A DNA stretch of 64,000 bases. It comes from Spirochaeta africana DSM 8902. Its GTDB lineage: Bacteria > Spirochaetota > Spirochaetia > DSM-27196 > DSM-8902. Numbering within the stretch: the first letter of the stretch is position 1; each line of letters begins with the position of its first letter. Location of the stretch: positions 2,232,001 to 2,296,000 of the forward strand of contig NC_017098.1 in NCBI RefSeq assembly GCF_000242595.2, given 5' to 3'. The notes under the pieces were generated by a model. That model saw nothing but the letters and a program-made list of their open reading frames with translations. It was not told the origin of the DNA and searched no databases. Positions 9,608 through 18,073 of this stretch are shown in pieces. Position numbers and translations under genes: made by a program.

Positions 9608-10276
9608 TCAGCGGCCGGAGCCGTCGATCCGGCTGAACAACCATTCCCCCAGTTCAGTATAGTCGGAAAACGTCACATCAGCGATGGAATCTTTTCGCGG
9701 CTTGCGGCACAGGTGGGCTGCCCACATCCCCGCATTCTTGGATCCGATCACATCATACGAATAGGAATTGCCGACATACAGCACATGTTCCGGCTGCACC
9801 CCCAGTTCGGTACAGACGGCCCGGAACGGTGCCGGATGGGGTTTCAGATAGCCAACGTCTTCGGAGGACAGCTTGCAGGCCCAGCCGTCAGGCAGGCCGA
9901 CGATATCCATCTTGCGCTTGACCGGAAAATCCGACAGCAGTCCGCGCGGGATACCGGCATCGTCAAGCTGCTGCAGAAATCGGCGCAAGCCCTTGACCAG
10001 GGTAATCCCGTGCAGCAGGTCTTCCCAGGTATGTACCTTGTCCGAGATCATCTGACGGGCGGAATCCCTGGGCACCCCGAGGGCCTCCCCCAGCAGGGCT
10101 GCCTGCATGTCATGATAATCCTCTACAATCGTAATGCTGCGGATCTGCTTGCGAATTCTGGAGAAACGACGGACAAAGCCCGCATTTTTCAGGCCGTACC
10201 ACAGGCTGCGACGATACATTGCCGAATTCGGGTACAAGGTACCGTCGACATCAAAAACTACTGCATGAATCTCCAT
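9608..10276 (-). CDS. HAD-superfamily hydrolase (phosphatase)
   Basis: The 222-residue protein starts at the ATG at 10276, after an AGGGG site. The longer frame back to 10387 would run into the TonB gene and lacks family similarity. The four HAD motifs are visible: motif I FDVDGTLY at about 8-15, motif II LLSDF, motif III Lys in LKPHP, and motif IV VGNSYSYDVIG. These proteins hydrolyse small phosphate esters through an aspartyl-phosphate, but the substrate cannot be read from sequence. The stop of the upstream TonB-like gene is 7 bases away, so it is probably the last gene of that operon. Confidence 0.8.
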   Translation of the reverse strand: MEIHAVVFDVDGTLYPNSAMYRRSLWYGLKNAGFVRRFSRIRKQIRSITIVEDYHDMQAALLGEALGVPRDSARQMISDKVHTWEDLLHGITLVKGLRRFLQQLDDAGIPRGLLSDFPVKRKMDIVGLPDGWACKLSSEDVGYLKPHPAPFRAVCTELGVQPEHVLYVGNSYSYDVIGSKNAGMWAAHLCRKPRKDSIADVTFSDYTELGEWLFSRIDGSGR

Positions 10277-10283
10277 GAATCCC

Positions 10284-11282
10284 CTACTGTACTCTGCGAA
10301 TGGTGTATGTAATCTCGCCGCGCGCATTGCGTGAGCCGGGGGCCGGTGTAAACTGCCATCCCTGCACCGCCGAGCGGATGCGAGCATCTATCTCATTATT
10401 ACCTGAAGATTTCTCGAATTGCAAGTCGACCACCCTTCCCTGGGGATCGACCACAAAGGAAACCATCGCGGTGAGTACCGGTGGATCGGCTGATCGCAGC
10501 AGGGTGTTGCTGAGCATCGGATCGCTGCCGCCAATCCGCACCCGGTTCCCGGCCAGTCGCGGCAGATCGCCGCTGGCCTGCCCGTCGGTCTGTGGATCGG
10601 CGGTCTGGGAGATATCGATAGCCCGCACCTGCTGATCAGGACCGGTCAGCCGGGACAGGATCCGGTCGATCTCCTGCAGCCGCTGGTCCGACAAGCCCTC
10701 CTGAACCGTCGGCTCGGCATCCGCTTGCGGGGCCGGTCGCGGGGCGAGATCAGGCTGACTGTCGAGCCACTCCTGCAGCTCCAGCAGATTCTCCCGACGC
10801 AGGGCAATCTCGGCATCGGTCGGCCCTTCCGGCGGCCCGACCGCTGACGGTTGAACCGGCTCTGGCGGGGCAGTTGTATCCGGTGCAGTACGCAGGGCGG
10901 CATCCGGGATCTCCTGCTGAAACCGGAACTCCAGCTGCTCCTCGGGCGGAGACGGCCGGGCTTCGCGCGCCGGGGGTGGCGGCTGCGACGGGGCAGGCGG
11001 CGCGGGTTCTGCTGGCTGGGCCGGTTCATCCGGTGGCTGCGGTGCCGGTTCGGCGGGCGCCGGTTCGGCTGGCTGCTCCGGAGCCGTCTCGGCAACCGTT
11101 TCCGCTGGCTCTACCGGATCAAAATCGGCCAGCTCGATAAACACAATCCCGGCATACTCCGGTGTGATCGGGCGCTGAATCGCCAGAAGCTGCAAAACCA
11201 CCGCCAGCACAATGTGCAGCAGCAGCGCAAGCCCGACACCCTGCAGAATTCTTTGGCGTGTAGTCTGATACACCGTCTGCAC
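10284..11282 (-). CDS. TonB-like energy transducer
   Basis: The protein has 332 residues from a GTG start two bases after the exbD stop. An N-terminal membrane helix lies at about 14-34. A long Pro/Ala/Glu-rich spacer at about 60-130 suits a periplasm-spanning arm. A C-terminal TonB-type domain at about 250-332 has the family pattern of VSFVVDPQGRVVDLQFEKSS, then IRSAVQGWQFTP and YTIRRVQ. TonB couples the proton-driven ExbB/ExbD motor to outer-membrane proteins. Its place directly after exbB and exbD supports the call. TolA is an alternative, but the C-terminal domain reads as TonB. Confidence 0.85.
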   Translation of the reverse strand: MQTVYQTTRQRILQGVGLALLLHIVLAVVLQLLAIQRPITPEYAGIVFIELADFDPVEPAETVAETAPEQPAEPAPAEPAPQPPDEPAQPAEPAPPAPSQPPPPAREARPSPPEEQLEFRFQQEIPDAALRTAPDTTAPPEPVQPSAVGPPEGPTDAEIALRRENLLELQEWLDSQPDLAPRPAPQADAEPTVQEGLSDQRLQEIDRILSRLTGPDQQVRAIDISQTADPQTDGQASGDLPRLAGNRVRIGGSDPMLSNTLLRSADPPVLTAMVSFVVDPQGRVVDLQFEKSSGNNEIDARIRSAVQGWQFTPAPGSRNARGEITYTIRRVQ

Positions 11283-11284
11283 GT

Positions 11285-11695
11285 TTATTGTGCCTCCCGG
11301 GTACGCAGGCTCACCCCGCGAAAATTATTGCGACGAAGGACATCAAGCACCTGTACGATACTCTCGTAACTGGTTTCACGATCCCCTTCTACCACAATCC
11401 CGCGCGGCTCACCTTCCGGCCATGCCTGATCCAGGCGTGCGAAATGCTCCTGCAGCCCCTCAAGGCTGTACTGGTCGCGGTTGACATAGTATTCCCCCGG
11501 TCCGACAACCGTAACCACGGTAGGGGTGGTTACGATGCTTTCGGCACTGCCGGACTCCGGCAGATTCAGGGCAATCCCGGGGGTCATGACAAAGGTGCTC
11601 GAAACCATAAAAAACACCACCAGCTGAAATACCACATCGATCATGGGCACCAGGTCAACATTGGCATTCGGCTGGAGTCGACGACGAAACTGCAT
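11285..11695 (-). CDS. exbD: ExbD/TolR-type biopolymer transport protein
   Basis: The 136-residue protein has a single transmembrane helix at about 15-37. That helix carries the conserved Asp of the proton path (VPMIDVVFQL) and is followed by the usual LNLPES segment and a periplasmic domain. ExbD sits inside the ExbB pentamer and works as part of the proton-driven motor. Its ATG overlaps the exbB stop (TGATG), and the TonB-like gene starts two bases after its stop. ExbD and TolR cannot be separated by sequence alone; the TonB neighbour favours ExbD. Confidence 0.9.
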   Translation of the reverse strand: MQFRRRLQPNANVDLVPMIDVVFQLVVFFMVSSTFVMTPGIALNLPESGSAESIVTTPTVVTVVGPGEYYVNRDQYSLEGLQEHFARLDQAWPEGEPRGIVVEGDRETSYESIVQVLDVLRRNNFRGVSLRTREAQ

Positions 11696-12303
11696 CAGCC
11701 TCTCCCCTTCAGTACCATCACCAGCTCACTGACCCGATTCTCCAACCGGATGATCGAGTGGTTTACCTTGCTTACCAGATAATTGTAGAAGATAATTGCC
11801 GGAATCGATACGATGATACCAGCAGCGGTTGTTACCAGTGCCTCGGCAATACCGCGGGCCAGCAGCGCCGGGTCACCACCCATCCCGAATTCCCCCAGAA
11901 CACCAAAAGCTGCAATGTTGCCGGTAACCGTACCCAGCAACCCGAGTAGCGGGGTTATATGCGCAATAGTGCCCAGAAAGGACAGCGGCCCCTCCATCCG
12001 CGGGATCTCCATGTTGGCGGCATCGGTGATAGCACCCTTGATCACCTCGGAATTATACCCGCGGTACTCTATACCTACCTTCATCAGGTTGGTAATCGGG
12101 GTGGGATTCTGCTCGCAGATGCTCATCGCCTCTTCGTAATGCCCCTTCTCCAGGCTGTTCTTGAGGCGCGTCAGCAGCTTTTCCTCATCTGCACGAATCC
12201 GGGAAAAGTACAGCAGGCGTTCGATAATGATTGCTGCCGCAACCAGCGACAGCATTGCAATCAGGATCAGTATGATCCCTCCCTGTTCGACTAAAACCAT
12301 CAT
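11695..12303 (-). CDS. exbB: ExbB/TolQ/MotA-type proton channel protein
   Basis: The 202-residue protein has three membrane helices, at about 8-28, 105-130 and 150-175. The signature of the family is clear: a Gly-rich second helix (TPLLGLLGTVTG) and a third helix region with GIAEALVTTAAGI. It forms the channel ring that uses proton flow to drive the TonB-like protein. Start choice is between two adjacent ATGs (12303 and 12300), preceded by GAGGAC. It lies 25 bases after the beta-barrel gene. Confidence 0.9.
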   Translation of the reverse strand: MMVLVEQGGIILILIAMLSLVAAAIIIERLLYFSRIRADEEKLLTRLKNSLEKGHYEEAMSICEQNPTPITNLMKVGIEYRGYNSEVIKGAITDAANMEIPRMEGPLSFLGTIAHITPLLGLLGTVTGNIAAFGVLGEFGMGGDPALLARGIAEALVTTAAGIIVSIPAIIFYNYLVSKVNHSIIRLENRVSELVMVLKGRG

Positions 12304-12328
12304 AGCAAGTCCTCACTTATGCCCAGAA

Positions 12329-14032
12329 TTATAGGGTAATCTCGGCGCTCAGCGTAAACCGGATTCCCGGTTCGATGAACGGGCTGAACCCCGGGGTTCC
12401 ATTGTCGGAACTGACATCAAACTGATAGCGGTCACCATCGATAAGCGGCGCCAGCAGATCACGGATCGCTGCACGCAGCACAATCCCGTCGGTAACCTGC
12501 ACGTAGGAGTGCAGATCCAGATACGGCAGGGAAGCGACCGAATATACCGGAGCCTCCAGGTCGGCCCCACCGCCATACATCCCGTTTTCGCTGCCAAGGG
12601 TGATCCCCAGCTGTCCGAGATGTTGCGGTACTACCGGATTGCCCCTGGTGGAGAACAACGGCAGCGCCCCGCGGTAGCCGGCCTGCAGCCGGGCAAACCC
12701 GCTGAGCTGATATTGCAGCTGCAGGTGCGTCTGCAGCTCCACCCCGTCATAGGTGTCCCAGGAGAAACCGATCTGCGGGAAGGCGTCCGGATCATCACCA
12801 TCGGGAACAACATCGAAAAGGTACGCCCCGGGCAGAACCCGATCCTGAAACTCGATGATGTAGTCCACCCCGCCCTGCAGGCGCAGATTCTGCTCCACAA
12901 AGTCGGCCTGCATGCGCCCGCCGGCGAACCATTCCATAGCCGGATCGGGGCTGCGCCCCGCAGGCAGGCGCAGCAGCGGGATGTCACGCCACAGATCATG
13001 CAGCAGGGTGCGCTGTGCACGCCGGCCAAACGATCCCTGAAACTCTACCCAGTCACTGCTGCGGTAGTTGACACCGAGTGTAAAGGGATACTCAAAACGG
13101 TCACCTACCAGCCACAAGGCACCGGCGTTCCCGTAGAGATCGACCCGGCTCGAGGGCTGTGCATCGAAGCTGACGGTTATGGCACCGTCGTGCAGGATAT
13201 CAATCGAGTCCATCCCGCCGGCACCGAGAGCCTGCAACCCGTACTCCGCACCAAGACTCAGGGTAAAAGCCGGCAGCTCGACTGCTACTCGTGCCCCTGC
13301 CTGGAGATAGTCTTCGTCGTCAGATTCCGGAACCTCCTCGGTCTCGGACACCGACAAGCGTCGTGAGGCGCTGCCGGCATGCAGCGAGCCGTACACCCCG
13401 ATCAGTTCGTCCGGCCTCAGCTCGACCTCGCCATGCCCCGACAGGAAACGCAGGATCGTGGAGTAATAGGAATCCGATGTCTGCTGCAGCCCTTCCTGCC
13501 ACTCGGTAAAGCCCGCACCGGTCTCGAACTGGACCGGACCGGCAGTGGAGCCGAGCCAGCCGTCAAGTCGCTGTTCGGAGCGAAAAAAACCGGTGCCGGG
13601 AGATTTACCACCGTACCCGTCCACCCCCTGATGGGAAAAGGTCAGGCGAAAACGCGGGTCCTGTCCCAGCTTGAACACCCCGAGCTGCCCCTCGATCAGA
13701 TTGCGAGAACCGGCGGTGATGCTGCCGGTACTGAACACGGATGTCTCGACCGGATCCAGATCATCGGTAATATCCGGCAGCAGCAGTCGCGGCTGCACCT
13801 CCATCTCCTGCACCGACGGGAGGGGTATTACAAGCTCCGGCAGCACCAGCTGAGCCGCCCCTGGCAGCACTGCCTCCACACGCTCGAAGGGTATACCATC
13901 AACCCGCAACAGGGCGGTTGGCAAGACTATTTCAGGCTCTTCGGGGGCATCGCTCTGTCCGGCTGCGTACAATGGCAACAGGAGAAGCGCTATAATCATG
14001 AATCGCGACGGGGTAAACCTGGTCATCTCCAT
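12329..14032 (-). CDS. Putative outer-membrane beta-barrel protein
   Basis: The protein has 567 residues. The ATG at 14032 overlaps the TPR gene stop (TGATG) and has GGAGG just upstream; an ATG at 14026 is also possible. A signal peptide covers about 1-25 (LLLLPLYAAGQ). After an acidic and Pro-rich stretch come many short alternating polar/hydrophobic segments ending in aromatic residues, with Gly-rich turns (such as FTLSLGAEYGL). The C-terminus reads FTLSAEITL. This is the texture of a transmembrane beta-barrel. I see no plug domain or TonB box, so it is not an ordinary TonB-dependent receptor. Its position between a TPR protein and exbB suggests it is the outer-membrane partner of this motor. 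Confidence 0.6.
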   Translation of the reverse strand: MEMTRFTPSRFMIIALLLLPLYAAGQSDAPEEPEIVLPTALLRVDGIPFERVEAVLPGAAQLVLPELVIPLPSVQEMEVQPRLLLPDITDDLDPVETSVFSTGSITAGSRNLIEGQLGVFKLGQDPRFRLTFSHQGVDGYGGKSPGTGFFRSEQRLDGWLGSTAGPVQFETGAGFTEWQEGLQQTSDSYYSTILRFLSGHGEVELRPDELIGVYGSLHAGSASRRLSVSETEEVPESDDEDYLQAGARVAVELPAFTLSLGAEYGLQALGAGGMDSIDILHDGAITVSFDAQPSSRVDLYGNAGALWLVGDRFEYPFTLGVNYRSSDWVEFQGSFGRRAQRTLLHDLWRDIPLLRLPAGRSPDPAMEWFAGGRMQADFVEQNLRLQGGVDYIIEFQDRVLPGAYLFDVVPDGDDPDAFPQIGFSWDTYDGVELQTHLQLQYQLSGFARLQAGYRGALPLFSTRGNPVVPQHLGQLGITLGSENGMYGGGADLEAPVYSVASLPYLDLHSYVQVTDGIVLRAAIRDLLAPLIDGDRYQFDVSSDNGTPGFSPFIEPGIRFTLSAEITL

Positions 14033-16944
14033 CAATCCTCCAGGAGGCGTTCAGCTGCCTCGCTCCATTGCGTCTGCGGAAAACTGTCCTGAATGCGCTG
14101 CACCAGCTGCTCGGCCTCGCGAGGCCGGGAGTCACGAATCAGAGCCTCGGCTCCCCGGTACAGGCTGCGCGCCAGCAGATCACGATCCGCTGCTACAGTC
14201 GCTGCCGCATCAAGAAAGGCGTCGGCAGCCCGTGCGGGGCGGTCGGTACGCATAAAGTACTCACCCAGCAGAAAATGGGCCTCCGCAGCCTGATCGGGGG
14301 CATCATCATCGCGGGTTGCAACCTGCTGCAGCTGAGGAACTACCCGCTCAGCCTCACTGTCCAGCGTGAACGCCTCCAGCAGTACGGTGCGCCCCAGCTC
14401 AAGAATTGCCTCCCGGCCTGCCCGGGTAGCTGCACCCTCATTCTGCTCGATCTGAACCCGCAGTTCTGCCTCACGTTCGGACACACCGCTAACCTGCAGC
14501 ACCAGTTCGTCGGCAATCCGGTCGGCACCCGCAGCAGCTGCCTGCTGCGGATAGCGGGCTCGCGCCTCGGACACCAGGTTCAGTGCAGTACGATGCTCAC
14601 CGCGCTGTCGATAGATACGAGCGGCGTTCATCATTGCATCAAACCGGTGGGGACTGTCACGATGCTCTTCCACCAGCCGATTCCACAGCAGCAGTGCCCC
14701 GGAGGGCTCGCCAAGCTGCTCGGCGATCTCGCCGCCAATAAACAGCGCGTCATCGATACGATCACCAGCAGGGTACGAGGTGCGATACTCGAACAGCAGC
14801 TCCTGGACAACACGCAGATTATCACGTTCCAGCTGTACCTGGGCCCGGCGATACAGTGCCTCCTGCCCCAGATAACTGTCGGGATAGCGATTGGTAACTT
14901 CGGCAAACGCCTCAAGTGCGGACTCGACCCGATCGGCACGCAGCAGCGCCTCGGCAAAGCCGAACCGGGCCTCCCGGGCCCGGGACGAGTCCGGAAAGTC
15001 CAGAAAGACACCGCGATAGCTGCTGATCGCCTGCTGATACTCACCCAGCTCGATCTGGGTCTGAGCCAGCAGATATCCTGCATCGGCGGCCAGCGCGGGC
15101 TCGGGGTCGAATGCCGATATCCGCTGCAGCAGTGACTGGGCGGTCGCATACTCCCCGTCTGCAAAAGCACTCCAGCCGGCCAGATAAACCGCCCGGGGGG
15201 TAATGCCCGCCGCAGGATACTCATCCGGGATCCGGCTGAACAGCCGAAGCGAATCACGATAGTTACCCTGCTGATAGTACGACCAGGCATGGTAGAAAAG
15301 ATTATATGGATGCAGCGCTGCCACATCCTCGCCTAAACCAAGCGCTTCTGAGGTGGCAAGCTGTGACACCGGCGCGAAGAACTCTACGGCGGTGCGAAAG
15401 TCAGCCGCGGTTACCGCGGAAAGCCCGCGCAGGTAGAACAACTTTGCCCGTTCCTGAGGATATGCCTCGCCCAGTCCGGGAAGCTGCTCCAGCAAGGTCT
15501 CTACCTCCCGATCCACCGCTGCATAGCGTTCCTGTTCAAACAGCACTGTCACATACTCTACTACTGCCGGTATATCGTCGGGACGCAACGCCAGATAATC
15601 CCGGAAGCTCTCGATAGCAGCCGAGCCGTTCCCGGTCTGCCGATGAATCTGTGCCTCAAGGCGCAGCAGGTCTTCCTGGATCCCGCTGGTCAGTCCACGG
15701 GCATGCAGATCACGTACTATTCGCAGGGCATCATCGTAGTCTTCGAGTTGAACCAGTACAAAGGCATGAAGGTAGGAGGCCTGAGGAAACAGCTCGGACC
15801 GCGAGTGCAGGCGCCGGAACGTCGCCGTGTTTTCCCGTGCCTCCTGCCACAGCCCCTGTTTTGCCTGCAAGGTGGACAACCGGAACAGCCCGACCGCCCC
15901 GGACTCACGCTCGACGAACTCGGAAAGCACCCGTATACCCTGCTCGTAATCACCACGAATCTCGGCTATCTCGGCAAGGTACAGCGGCACGATCTCGGAG
16001 ACCTCGTGCACACCGCGAAGATCCCACACCCGCCGCAGATACAGCTCGGCCAGCCGGTACTCCTGATTCTGAAAACTGCTCAGCCCGACGCGGGTCCAGA
16101 AGTCCTTCAGGACCTCACTGCGCCCGGCAAGCACCTGCTCGGCACGACGTATAACTGCAGCGACATCCTCCTGACTGCCAATTTCCTGCATGATCAGGAA
16201 CAATCGTTGAAACGCAACCGTTGCAATCTCCAGCCGGCTTTCGGTCAAGGTTTCAAACAGCTCTCGAGCCAGCTCGAACTCATCCAGGAAAAACAGTGCC
16301 TCGGCCTGAAACAGCCTGACCTGGTCGGCCCACTGAGCCGGCAGGGAATCAATTGAAAGCTGTTCGGCAATCTCCAGGATCTGCTGATACTCCTGCTGAC
16401 CATGCAGCAGCGAGACATATAACGCACCGGCAAATCCCCGTACCGATTCGCCCGGGGCGTTCAACAGGTCACGCAGAATCTCACGGGCCTCCTCGGCATC
16501 GCCCAGCGCAATCCGGCTGCGTGCAAGGTAGAGCCGGGCTTCATTCTGTACAGCCTGGTCGCGTACCTGTACAGCAGAAAGGTTATCCGCCGCACGTGAG
16601 TACTGCCCAAGCTGAAACTGGGAGACACCGAGATAGAACGGTACATACGGCAAAAAACGGGTTGATCGATAGCGAGTCTGCACCCTGGCAAACAGATCAG
16701 CGGATTCCTGATAGCGACCAAGCTGGTACAGGGTAACAGCCCGCCGGAACTGGACATCGGGTACGAGTTCACTGGTCGGGTGTTCCCGAAGGAACTGCTC
16801 GTAACGCTCAAGAGCTACGGCGTAGTCCCCGGTGCGAAACCGCTGCTCGGCAGATTGATACAGGAATCTGTCACCGGTCTGGCCGAATACCGGTATTTCC
16901 GCGATGAGCAGCAGCAATCCGCACATCGCCAATGTTCGTTTCAT
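14032..16944 (-). CDS. Large exported TPR-repeat protein
   Basis: The protein has 970 residues from the ATG at 16944, which begins a clean signal peptide (MKRTLAMCGLLLLIAEIPVFG). The frame can be extended upstream to a TTG at 16980 without support. Almost the whole mature protein is a run of TPR-like helical pairs rich in Tyr, Ala, Leu and Arg (for example YRTGDYAVALERYEQFL and YPDSYLGQEALYRRA), giving perhaps 20 or more repeats. It resembles the periplasmic YbgF/CpoB and BamD-type TPR proteins but is much longer. No ribosome site is obvious. It is the first gene of the run TPR, beta-barrel, exbB, exbD, tonB, HAD, and is probably a periplasmic scaffold of that complex. Confidence 0.75.
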   Translation of the reverse strand: MKRTLAMCGLLLLIAEIPVFGQTGDRFLYQSAEQRFRTGDYAVALERYEQFLREHPTSELVPDVQFRRAVTLYQLGRYQESADLFARVQTRYRSTRFLPYVPFYLGVSQFQLGQYSRAADNLSAVQVRDQAVQNEARLYLARSRIALGDAEEAREILRDLLNAPGESVRGFAGALYVSLLHGQQEYQQILEIAEQLSIDSLPAQWADQVRLFQAEALFFLDEFELARELFETLTESRLEIATVAFQRLFLIMQEIGSQEDVAAVIRRAEQVLAGRSEVLKDFWTRVGLSSFQNQEYRLAELYLRRVWDLRGVHEVSEIVPLYLAEIAEIRGDYEQGIRVLSEFVERESGAVGLFRLSTLQAKQGLWQEARENTATFRRLHSRSELFPQASYLHAFVLVQLEDYDDALRIVRDLHARGLTSGIQEDLLRLEAQIHRQTGNGSAAIESFRDYLALRPDDIPAVVEYVTVLFEQERYAAVDREVETLLEQLPGLGEAYPQERAKLFYLRGLSAVTAADFRTAVEFFAPVSQLATSEALGLGEDVAALHPYNLFYHAWSYYQQGNYRDSLRLFSRIPDEYPAAGITPRAVYLAGWSAFADGEYATAQSLLQRISAFDPEPALAADAGYLLAQTQIELGEYQQAISSYRGVFLDFPDSSRAREARFGFAEALLRADRVESALEAFAEVTNRYPDSYLGQEALYRRAQVQLERDNLRVVQELLFEYRTSYPAGDRIDDALFIGGEIAEQLGEPSGALLLWNRLVEEHRDSPHRFDAMMNAARIYRQRGEHRTALNLVSEARARYPQQAAAAGADRIADELVLQVSGVSEREAELRVQIEQNEGAATRAGREAILELGRTVLLEAFTLDSEAERVVPQLQQVATRDDDAPDQAAEAHFLLGEYFMRTDRPARAADAFLDAAATVAADRDLLARSLYRGAEALIRDSRPREAEQLVQRIQDSFPQTQWSEAAERLLED

Positions 16945-16992
16945 GCAGTATAAGGTACACCAAGGCGGGAAATAATTCAAAGGGTTATTTAC

Positions 16993-17069
16993 TGACGCCA
17001 GTTTTGTTGTTCGGGGCCGCAGCGGCCTCCTGTCGCCGTCTCAGTGGGCAAACAACAAAACTGGCGTCA
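16993..17069. repeat. Perfect 19-bp inverted repeat with 39-base spacer
   Basis: The arms at 16993-17011 (tgacgccagttttgttgtt) and 17051-17069 are exact reverse complements. The spacer holds a smaller GC hairpin (ggccg / cggcc). No T-run follows on either strand, so it is not a standard intrinsic terminator. It lies between the stop of the secreted protein gene (17099) and the start of the TPR gene (16944). It may be a leader structure or operator of the TPR-TonB operon, or a remnant of a small mobile repeat. Confidence 0.8.
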
Positions 17070-17098
17070 CCAGTATGTACCCGAGGGACTCTCGGCTC

Positions 17099-18073
17099 TC
17101 AATCGTCATCGCGCAGGTTCCCGATCGAAAGACTATCCGGACGCCGTACAGATAAAGCAAAATACGCCTCGGGAAACTGCGCTACCAGGCTGTGAACCGA
17201 AATCTGCTGCTGCCCGGCAAATGCAGTCATGCGGAATCGGCCGGATTCGGTAATATAGGGAAAGATCACTATCTCATCGGTTTCCGGGTTATCGGTGTGA
17301 AACCTCGATGGATACACGACACCGGACACCACCCTTCCCGGCTCCTGCTGATACTCATGGAACAGGCGACTCCTTAATCGGTCAAGCGGAATCATTTCTG
17401 TCGGCTCGGGTGCGAGAAAAACATCCGCCAGTTTGCCGGTAGCCTGGAACCTGCGGGCTGTTTCCTGCAGCTGCTCACTCCAGCTCAATGCGTCCTGCGC
17501 CCGAAACCTGTCCCAGTCGACAACATTCCTGGTCAAGGCGGCTACCAGATCAAACGGCTCAACAAGAACCCGGTTGAACTGTAGCGGGACACGCACCGAT
17601 CGATGCACGGTATCACCGGCTATTACCACATCCATACGGCTGCCGCGAACTGGATCAGGGAATATCCGCACAAAGAACTCGGAATCCGATAGCAGAAAGA
17701 TCTTGACCTGCTCGAACACCCCGCTGTCGCGATTGCGTTTGATGACATAACTGCCGGCACCATCGATGGGAAACTCACCCCGGTGTTCAACGAGAAACAG
17801 CTGATATACACCGTCGCCCTCGGTGAGCACCCGATACTTTATCCGGTGTCCATGGTACCGGGACAGATGGATTTCATCCGGGCGCCCGATAACCTCGCGA
17901 AGCGGTGCCTGGAGAGCCCGCGCATAGCCGGCCCGGACAACAGCGCTGTCCGGAAAATGAAAATCCGATGGCCGTGGCTGAAAAACTGTCTGAGCTCCGG
18001 CAACAGCAGTGGCCGCTGAGAAAACCAGCAGCACCAGTGCGGCTCGGCTATGTTTCAATATAGACTGATACAT
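17099..18073 (-). CDS. Secreted protein of unknown function
   Basis: The protein has 324 residues from the ATG at 18073; the longer frame upstream only shadows the MerR gene. A signal peptide spans about 1-28 (ALVLLVFSAATAVAGAQT). The mature part is a mixed alpha/beta sequence with Arg-rich strands (YHGHRIKYRVL, VIKRNRDSGVFEQ). I recognise no family. The start lies 26 bases inside the 3' end of the MerR-type gene and no clear ribosome site is seen, so translation is probably coupled. The shared transcription suggests the regulator and this envelope protein belong together. Confidence 0.65.
   Translation of the reverse strand: MYQSILKHSRAALVLLVFSAATAVAGAQTVFQPRPSDFHFPDSAVVRAGYARALQAPLREVIGRPDEIHLSRYHGHRIKYRVLTEGDGVYQLFLVEHRGEFPIDGAGSYVIKRNRDSGVFEQVKIFLLSDSEFFVRIFPDPVRGSRMDVVIAGDTVHRSVRVPLQFNRVLVEPFDLVAALTRNVVDWDRFRAQDALSWSEQLQETARRFQATGKLADVFLAPEPTEMIPLDRLRSRLFHEYQQEPGRVVSGVVYPSRFHTDNPETDEIVIFPYITESGRFRMTAFAGQQQISVHSLVAQFPEAYFALSVRRPDSLSIGNLRDDD

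Follow-up and report, generated by a model that had tools for sequence, protein, structure and literature searches.

TonB systems are usually viewed as pulling the plug out of an outer-membrane receptor. Among the closest described systems, FSU_2397-2403 of Fibrobacter succinogenes are raised on cellulose (PMC6851124). The abstract of a study in Myxococcus describes Oar as a TonB-dependent barrel required for moving PopC outward (PMC6434023). A 2025 survey of periplasmic force transducers found genes for tetratricopeptide repeat (TPR) proteins beside TolQR-vWA motors, and its main text is silent on spirochaetes (PMC12204202). In the open-access literature, we found no description of a TPR-barrel pair, of plugless barrels of the TonB-dependent receptor (TBDR) type, of TPR-ExbB clusters, or of the coiled-coil protein SpiroCoCo. 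We analyzed a stretch of 64,000 nucleotides (nt; the window) from the single-contig genome of Spirochaeta africana DSM 8902 (3,285,855 bases; NC_017098.1, positions 2,232,001 to 2,296,000). As a first-pass annotation of the window had reported, six consecutive minus-strand genes, arranged head to tail from 16944 to 9608, encode a giant TPR protein, a barrel, ExbB, ExbD, TonB and a HAD hydrolase, and are chained by successive intergenic gaps of -1, 25, -1, 2 and 7 nt. The motor, TonB, HAD and TPR genes had significant Pfam scores. The barrel protein matched no Pfam or NCBIfam family, and represents a new family named by neither database.

The predicted structure of the barrel protein placed it with the TBDRs. 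An AlphaFold2 model, built from 13 sequences and covering 556 residues, contained about 22 strands, with a mean predicted local distance difference test score (pLDDT) of 75.6 and a predicted template modeling score of 0.71. Residues 85-556 were mostly above a pLDDT of 90, and the stretch ahead of residue 85 was disordered. Barrel prediction had been proposed as a check on this 567-residue protein, and the outcome was a barrel and not a soluble protein. When the model was compared with the PDB using Foldseek and VIA-align, the top of both lists consisted entirely of TBDRs; the best matches were BtuB (E 4e-15; Z 21.7) and PirA (Z 22.2), and Cir, OprC and FhuA were also found. The predicted structure has the 22-strand barrel of a TonB-dependent receptor.

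At a threshold of E 1, the Plug domain (PF07715) matched none of 27 spirochaete members; scans of single homologues did not find it either. The TBDR barrel family (TonB_dep_Rec, PF00593) likewise had no match among the same 27 members. About 70 mature residues precede the first strand, in the place of the plug. Sequence comparison suggests a weak kinship with TBDRs that is independent of the fold: a Bacteroidota homologue matched TIGR01783 over the C-terminal barrel only (7.7e-6, a weak, sub-threshold match), and profiles of the barrel family also retrieved plug-bearing TBDRs. Because the top PDB matches were all TBDRs, the Plug domain matched none of the proteins, and there is this weak sequence kinship, we conclude that the barrel is, as modeled, a TBDR-type fold without a plug, which was either lost or never present. 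The first-pass annotation was correct that the barrel has no plug domain. Its statement that no receptor is present needs revision, since the AlphaFold2 model and the PDB matches indicate that the barrel itself is of the TBDR type.

The segment in the place of the plug is a tail of about 70 residues, directly behind the signal peptide, that is predicted to be disordered and is strongly conserved. In the window the tail peptide is EPEIVLPTALLRV. Spirochaete barrels share the motif [DE]-I-x-L-P-[DE]-[VI], followed by two further LP motifs. Among 62 spirochaete sequences, the prolines at open reading frame (ORF) positions 39, 58 and 73 were conserved in 93, 87 and 98%, respectively, and the tail ranked with the best-conserved 14-residue stretches of the protein, whose identity elsewhere is about 20-30%. 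Over the two phyla in which the barrel was found (Spirochaetota and Bacteroidota; see below), just two columns are near-invariant, and P27, in the tail, is one of them. The Bacteroidota counterpart of the tail reads IELPDFVITG; for comparison, a BtuB-like receptor encoded elsewhere in the S. africana genome has ERIIITG. A TonB-box-like pattern was present in the N-terminal window of 20 of 21 Bacteroidota barrels and 42 of 63 spirochaete barrels (shuffled means, 0.6 and 2.6, respectively). By its place and its Bacteroidota form, the tail appears to resemble a TonB box.

The operon encodes an intact-looking motor of the ExbBD/TolQR type and a TonB arm. NCBIfam profile scores of ExbB and ExbD were nearest to TolQ and TolR, all of them under the equivalog cut-offs. 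In an alignment of relatives, the ExbB channel residues T125, T158 and T159 were invariant and E154 nearly so, and D20 of ExbD was kept in 20 of 20 relatives. Solved structures of TolQ/ExbB and TolR/ExbD align over the channel parts of the window's motor. TonB clears the TonB family cut-off (TIGR01352) and aligns with a solved TonB C-terminal domain; its membrane histidine is present in the window copy and missing from many Treponema copies. All parts of an ExbB/ExbD/TonB energizer are therefore present: the channel protein, the membrane aspartate of ExbD, and the transmembrane helix and C-terminal domain of TonB. Elsewhere in the genome, a second motor (ExbB, two ExbD proteins and TonB; L059, 7212-12656) lies downstream of a lipoprotein and a CarboxypepD-type TBDR. 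At a further locus (L190, 5424-9382), the BtuB-like TBDR is followed by one gene and then a third TonB, with no ExbB or ExbD nearby.

The gene order is kept widely in the Spirochaetia, as a survey of relatives suggested by the first-pass annotation now shows. Barrel homologues were found in 71 of 393 sampled Spirochaetota genomes (35 of 168 genera); the ExbB clade occurs in 154 of 297 genomes of the class (74 of 112 genera). In this profile survey, the whole system was missing from many spirochaetes. In the first 27 genomes, the order TPR-barrel-ExbB-ExbD was kept wherever the flanking sequence sufficed, and TonB followed in all those whose contig extends far enough. By script, the gene immediately ahead of the barrel was TPR at 56 of the 61 spirochaete loci; four of the remaining five are accounted for by starts called too far upstream or by a 489-nt gap, and one (L156) is not. 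Downstream of the barrel were ExbB, ExbD and TonB (52 of 57 loci), the HAD gene (41 of 57) and SpiroCoCo (38 of 55). Because the order is kept in relatives, the clustering of the six genes is more than chance.

Within this arrangement, the TPR protein and the barrel form a cassette and are genetically inseparable. In family f57 and in genome G188, a gene of the family that we call p422 is followed directly by ExbB, ExbD and TonB, and TPR and barrel are both missing; in f57, HAD and SpiroCoCo still follow TonB. Families f17, f30 and f43 have the TPR-barrel pair but no motor beside it. Since the two genes are absent together where the motor is kept, and also stand together without an adjacent motor, the pair behaves as a unit that joins the motor operon. 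In one genome (G366; L160, 9668 onward), the TPR gene is split into two ORFs of 303 and 336 amino acids (aa), by frameshift or decay, in an otherwise complete operon.

The suggestion that the system is possibly unique to spirochaetes did not hold: profile searches and gene maps showed that the TPR-barrel pair, usually with ExbB, ExbD and TonB, also occurs in Bacteroidota. The spirochaete barrel profile matched one Bacteroidota genome (G716), with the order TPR (1018 aa), barrel (532 aa), a HU/SPOR protein, ExbB, ExbD and TonB. When the G716 barrel was used as a query, 48 of 296 Bacteroidota genomes were matched; the assignment of this sample to the phylum rests on loci L099 and L112. In the 21 loci that were mapped, the TPR gene always directly preceded the barrel, with a 4-nt overlap in 16, and behind the barrel were ExbB and ExbD in 17 and TonB in 19, with all three genes in 17. 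The HAD gene was absent. Alignment of the spirochaete and Bacteroidota barrel families with hhalign gave E 6.9e-21 over 511 columns (4.2e-12 for the barrel alone), and reversed or block-shuffled controls gave E 0.01-0.18. In a Bacteroidales genome (L099), a related plugless barrel with the tail NKEITVDRDF lies behind a TPR gene. The related operons in Bacteroidota point to an envelope machine of wide distribution and old origin that has apparently not been described.

The spirochaete barrel profile found no match in 24 genomes of other phyla, which shows little because one of these genomes (G546) yielded a homologue when a more general profile (A6) was used afterwards. A Poribacteria locus (L128, 3914-12114) has a similar layout, with TPR (1100 aa), a barrel-like protein of 579 aa, ExbB, a TonB-like protein and a TPR lipoprotein; hhalign and a profile search detected no barrel homology, and we did not retain it as a homologue. 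Omnitrophota have TPR-ExbB-ExbD-TonB without a barrel. In seven contigs of this type (L075, L080, L082, L085, L089, L090 and L092, one of them labeled Planctomycetales), a UvrA-sized gene, a TPR gene of about 830 aa, ExbB, ExbD and a TonB-like gene are conserved together; UvrA was identified from sequence in L075 and L080 and from gene size in the others.

Our preferred reading, to which we give about an even chance, is that the operon encodes a TonB-energized outer-membrane machine built on a plugless TBDR-type barrel whose pore is controlled by the TPR protein. From established TBDR structure, a 22-strand barrel without a plug would be wide open, so some closure of the pore is expected. The TPR protein, inseparable from the barrel at the genetic level, is the obvious choice for this role. 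ExbBD would power TonB, and TonB would bind the N-terminal tail of the barrel, gripping it as it would a TonB box. The TPR solenoid, at the periplasmic mouth, would close the wide pore in the plug's stead, or guide or feed it, and the force from TonB would open the pore or move cargo through it. Import of large substrates or TonB-driven export would both be possible, export having a precedent in Oar and PopC, as described in the abstract on that system (PMC6434023). More tentatively, and with somewhat less confidence, we propose that, next to TBDRs and Tol-Pal, there is a third class of machine in the outer membrane that TonB powers. Its gate would be a separate giant TPR protein, and its plugless TBDR barrel would be pulled through the TonB-box-like tail. 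Such a class would be old enough to occur in both Spirochaetota and Bacteroidota, a Bacteroidales genome among the latter, and would move large cargo across the outer membrane.

Several observations weigh against a TonB-powered, TPR-gated barrel. In the barrel model, which draws on only 13 sequences, 121 residues have a pLDDT below 50. The likeness of the tail to a TonB box was judged by eye, and we infer the contact between TonB and the barrel, the role of the TPR protein as a cap, the energization and the movement of cargo. The S. africana genome has two plug-bearing TBDRs that could use the window's motor. The motor may serve more than one client, because one of these receptors, the BtuB-like TBDR, has a TonB but no ExbBD nearby and the one further ExbBD set lies beside the other, the CarboxypepD-type TBDR. 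The pair stands without an adjacent motor in f17, f30 and f43, and the Bacteroidales pair has no motor on that contig stretch. These cases, the motors without a cassette in f57 and G188, the BtuB-like receptor without its own ExbBD, and the presence of at least one plug-bearing TBDR in most genomes would also fit two independent neighbors, with the motor as an ordinary energizer for TBDRs elsewhere and the TPR-barrel pair as an unpowered porin with a periplasmic partner. We consider such independence rather doubtful, since the five-gene order recurs across two phyla despite different surroundings, the tail is strongly constrained though predicted to be disordered, and 16 of the 63 cassette-bearing genomes have no detectable TBDR plug. 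We did not take the lack of plug-bearing TBDRs to prove that the cassette is the motor's client: the plug domain was also undetectable in 7 of 16 motor-only genomes, so its absence does not tie motor to cassette. The first-pass annotation had proposed a dedicated machine; this is only partly borne out, since there are motors without the pair and pairs without an adjacent motor.

The machine could instead transport nothing and act as a Tol-Pal-like tether or constriction device, in which TonB, pulling on the barrel and the TPR protein, would hold the outer membrane or make it invaginate. TolQ and TolR give the highest scores for ExbB and ExbD, the TPR protein has CpoB/YbgF-type repeats, and a neighboring HU/SPOR gene in Bacteroidota encodes SPOR, a peptidoglycan-binding domain. 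Searches for Tol-Pal itself also favor such a device. A Tol-Pal system would have TolB and Pal with TolQRA in one locus; neither gene is in the operon, no TolB-Pal operon was found, and TolB_N had matches in 3 of 39 genomes and none in the other 36, the match in the S. africana genome adjoining no motor or Pal gene. We nevertheless regard a tether as unlikely. The operon has no Pal-like partner, OmpA-domain proteins being encoded elsewhere; a 22-strand TBDR-type barrel is a pore fold that a pure tether would not need; and many spirochaetes do not have the system. Gliding or secretion machinery of the Agl-Glt, Nfs or type IX secretion kind also combines a motor, TPR proteins and barrels, and there were weak, repeat-driven matches to GltC, GltE, GltJ and PorW/SprE. 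All of these matches are far under the curated cut-offs (PorW/SprE, 66.4 vs 250 bits; GltC, 30 vs 450), and those of the TPR protein are typical of any protein with such repeats. The barrel folds as a TBDR in a comparison that did not extend to the GltA and GltB barrels, and we consider a gliding or secretion machine very improbable.

Table 1. Features of the operon and its flanks, in window positions.
Feature	Position	Strand	Basis
p422 family, shortened copy, 324 aa from the signal-peptide ATG	17099..18073 (ORF from 18367)	-	family conserved directly upstream of TPR in class Spirochaetia
Giant periplasmic TPR protein, 970 aa	14032..16944	-	signal peptide without lipobox; TPR repeats up to C-terminus; Pfam TPR_6 2e-41, TPR_16 1e-33; NCBIfam tol_pal_ybgF repeat matches
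Predicted plugless TBDR-type outer-membrane barrel, 567 aa	12329..14032	-	AlphaFold2 model; PDB matches are TonB-dependent receptors
Barrel N-terminal tail, conserved, after signal peptide	13825..13954 (approximate)	-	EIVLP (TonB-box-like) and two more LP motifs
ExbB/TolQ-type motor subunit, 202 aa	11695..12303	-	PF01618 1.2e-30; conserved Thr/Glu; aligns with solved TolQ and ExbB
ExbD/TolR-type motor subunit, 136 aa, membrane Asp D20	11285..11695	-	PF02472 2.8e-27; aligns with TolR
TonB arm, 332 aa: transmembrane helix with His, Pro-rich linker, TonB C-terminal domain	10284..11282	-	TIGR01352 6.3e-11 (above cut-off), PF13103 2e-8
HAD-superfamily hydrolase, 222 aa, cytoplasmic	9608..10276	-	PF00702 3.8e-19
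SpiroCoCo coiled-coil protein, 1392 aa	5398..9576	-	NF047515 1.1e-103, NF047514 7e-79; 31 nt behind HAD

The operon probably continues into SpiroCoCo, which is conserved behind HAD in relatives; a GrpE gene lies 105 nt beyond it, downstream. In relatives, the operon probably begins one gene earlier, with p422. In the window, p422 is parted from the TPR gene by a 154-nt stretch containing an imperfect inverted repeat (ACTGGTGACGCCAGTTTTGTTGTT / AACAACAAAACTGGCGTCAGT; 16991-17074), located between the shortened p422 and the TPR start, that could be an attenuator or the scar of a small mobile element. In a scan for promoters and terminators, sites were not more common than in shuffled sequence. 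The window copy of p422 does not have the central domain, which in relatives carries NCSGF and a later histidine and is predicted to be papain-like; the catalytic cysteine is lost in Treponema. Given this loss, the missing domain in the window and structural matches to papain-like proteins that were no more than moderate (2im9, Z 7.8), p422 is at most a possible NlpC/P60-type enzyme.

For spirochaetes that have a TonB motor but no detected TBDR, the barrel is a candidate for the motor's outer-membrane client. Because the pair also occurs in a Bacteroidales genome, genetically tractable relatives may offer a way to study it. Compared with known systems, the locus resembles FSU_2397-2403, by description only, in its clustered genes for TPR, TPR, ExbB, ExbD, ExbD and TonB, with FSU_2399 as a barrel candidate (PMC6851124). 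It resembles Oar/PopC export, also by description, in having a presumed TonB-dependent barrel that would move protein outward, and differs in that the abstract on Oar mentions no TPR-barrel pair (PMC6434023). With Tol-Pal it shares a TolQR-like motor, a TonB/TolA-type arm and a CpoB-like TPR protein, but the operon has a barrel in place of TolB and Pal. As the first-pass annotation had recognized, it is neither Tol-Pal nor a usual TBDR operon, having no plug and no TolB or Pal gene. All three parts of the ExbB-ExbD-TonB energizer are present with conserved motor residues, but ExbB and ExbD are nearer TolQ and TolR in profile scores, and they share an operon with their presumed outer-membrane client. 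The barrel is like TBDRs (BtuB, Cir, OprC and PirA) in predicted fold and size (Z 20-22, 3-4 Å over 380-445 residues) and in its TonB-box-like N-terminal segment behind the signal peptide. It is unlike them in having a tail of about 70 residues and no plug, a giant TPR gene next to it, and about 10-15% sequence identity. The TPR-barrel system is apparently TonB-dependent, yet does not have the plug that marks a TBDR, and a widespread, conserved TBDR-type barrel with a TonB-box-like tail would be well suited for testing what TonB force accomplishes where no plug has to be removed.

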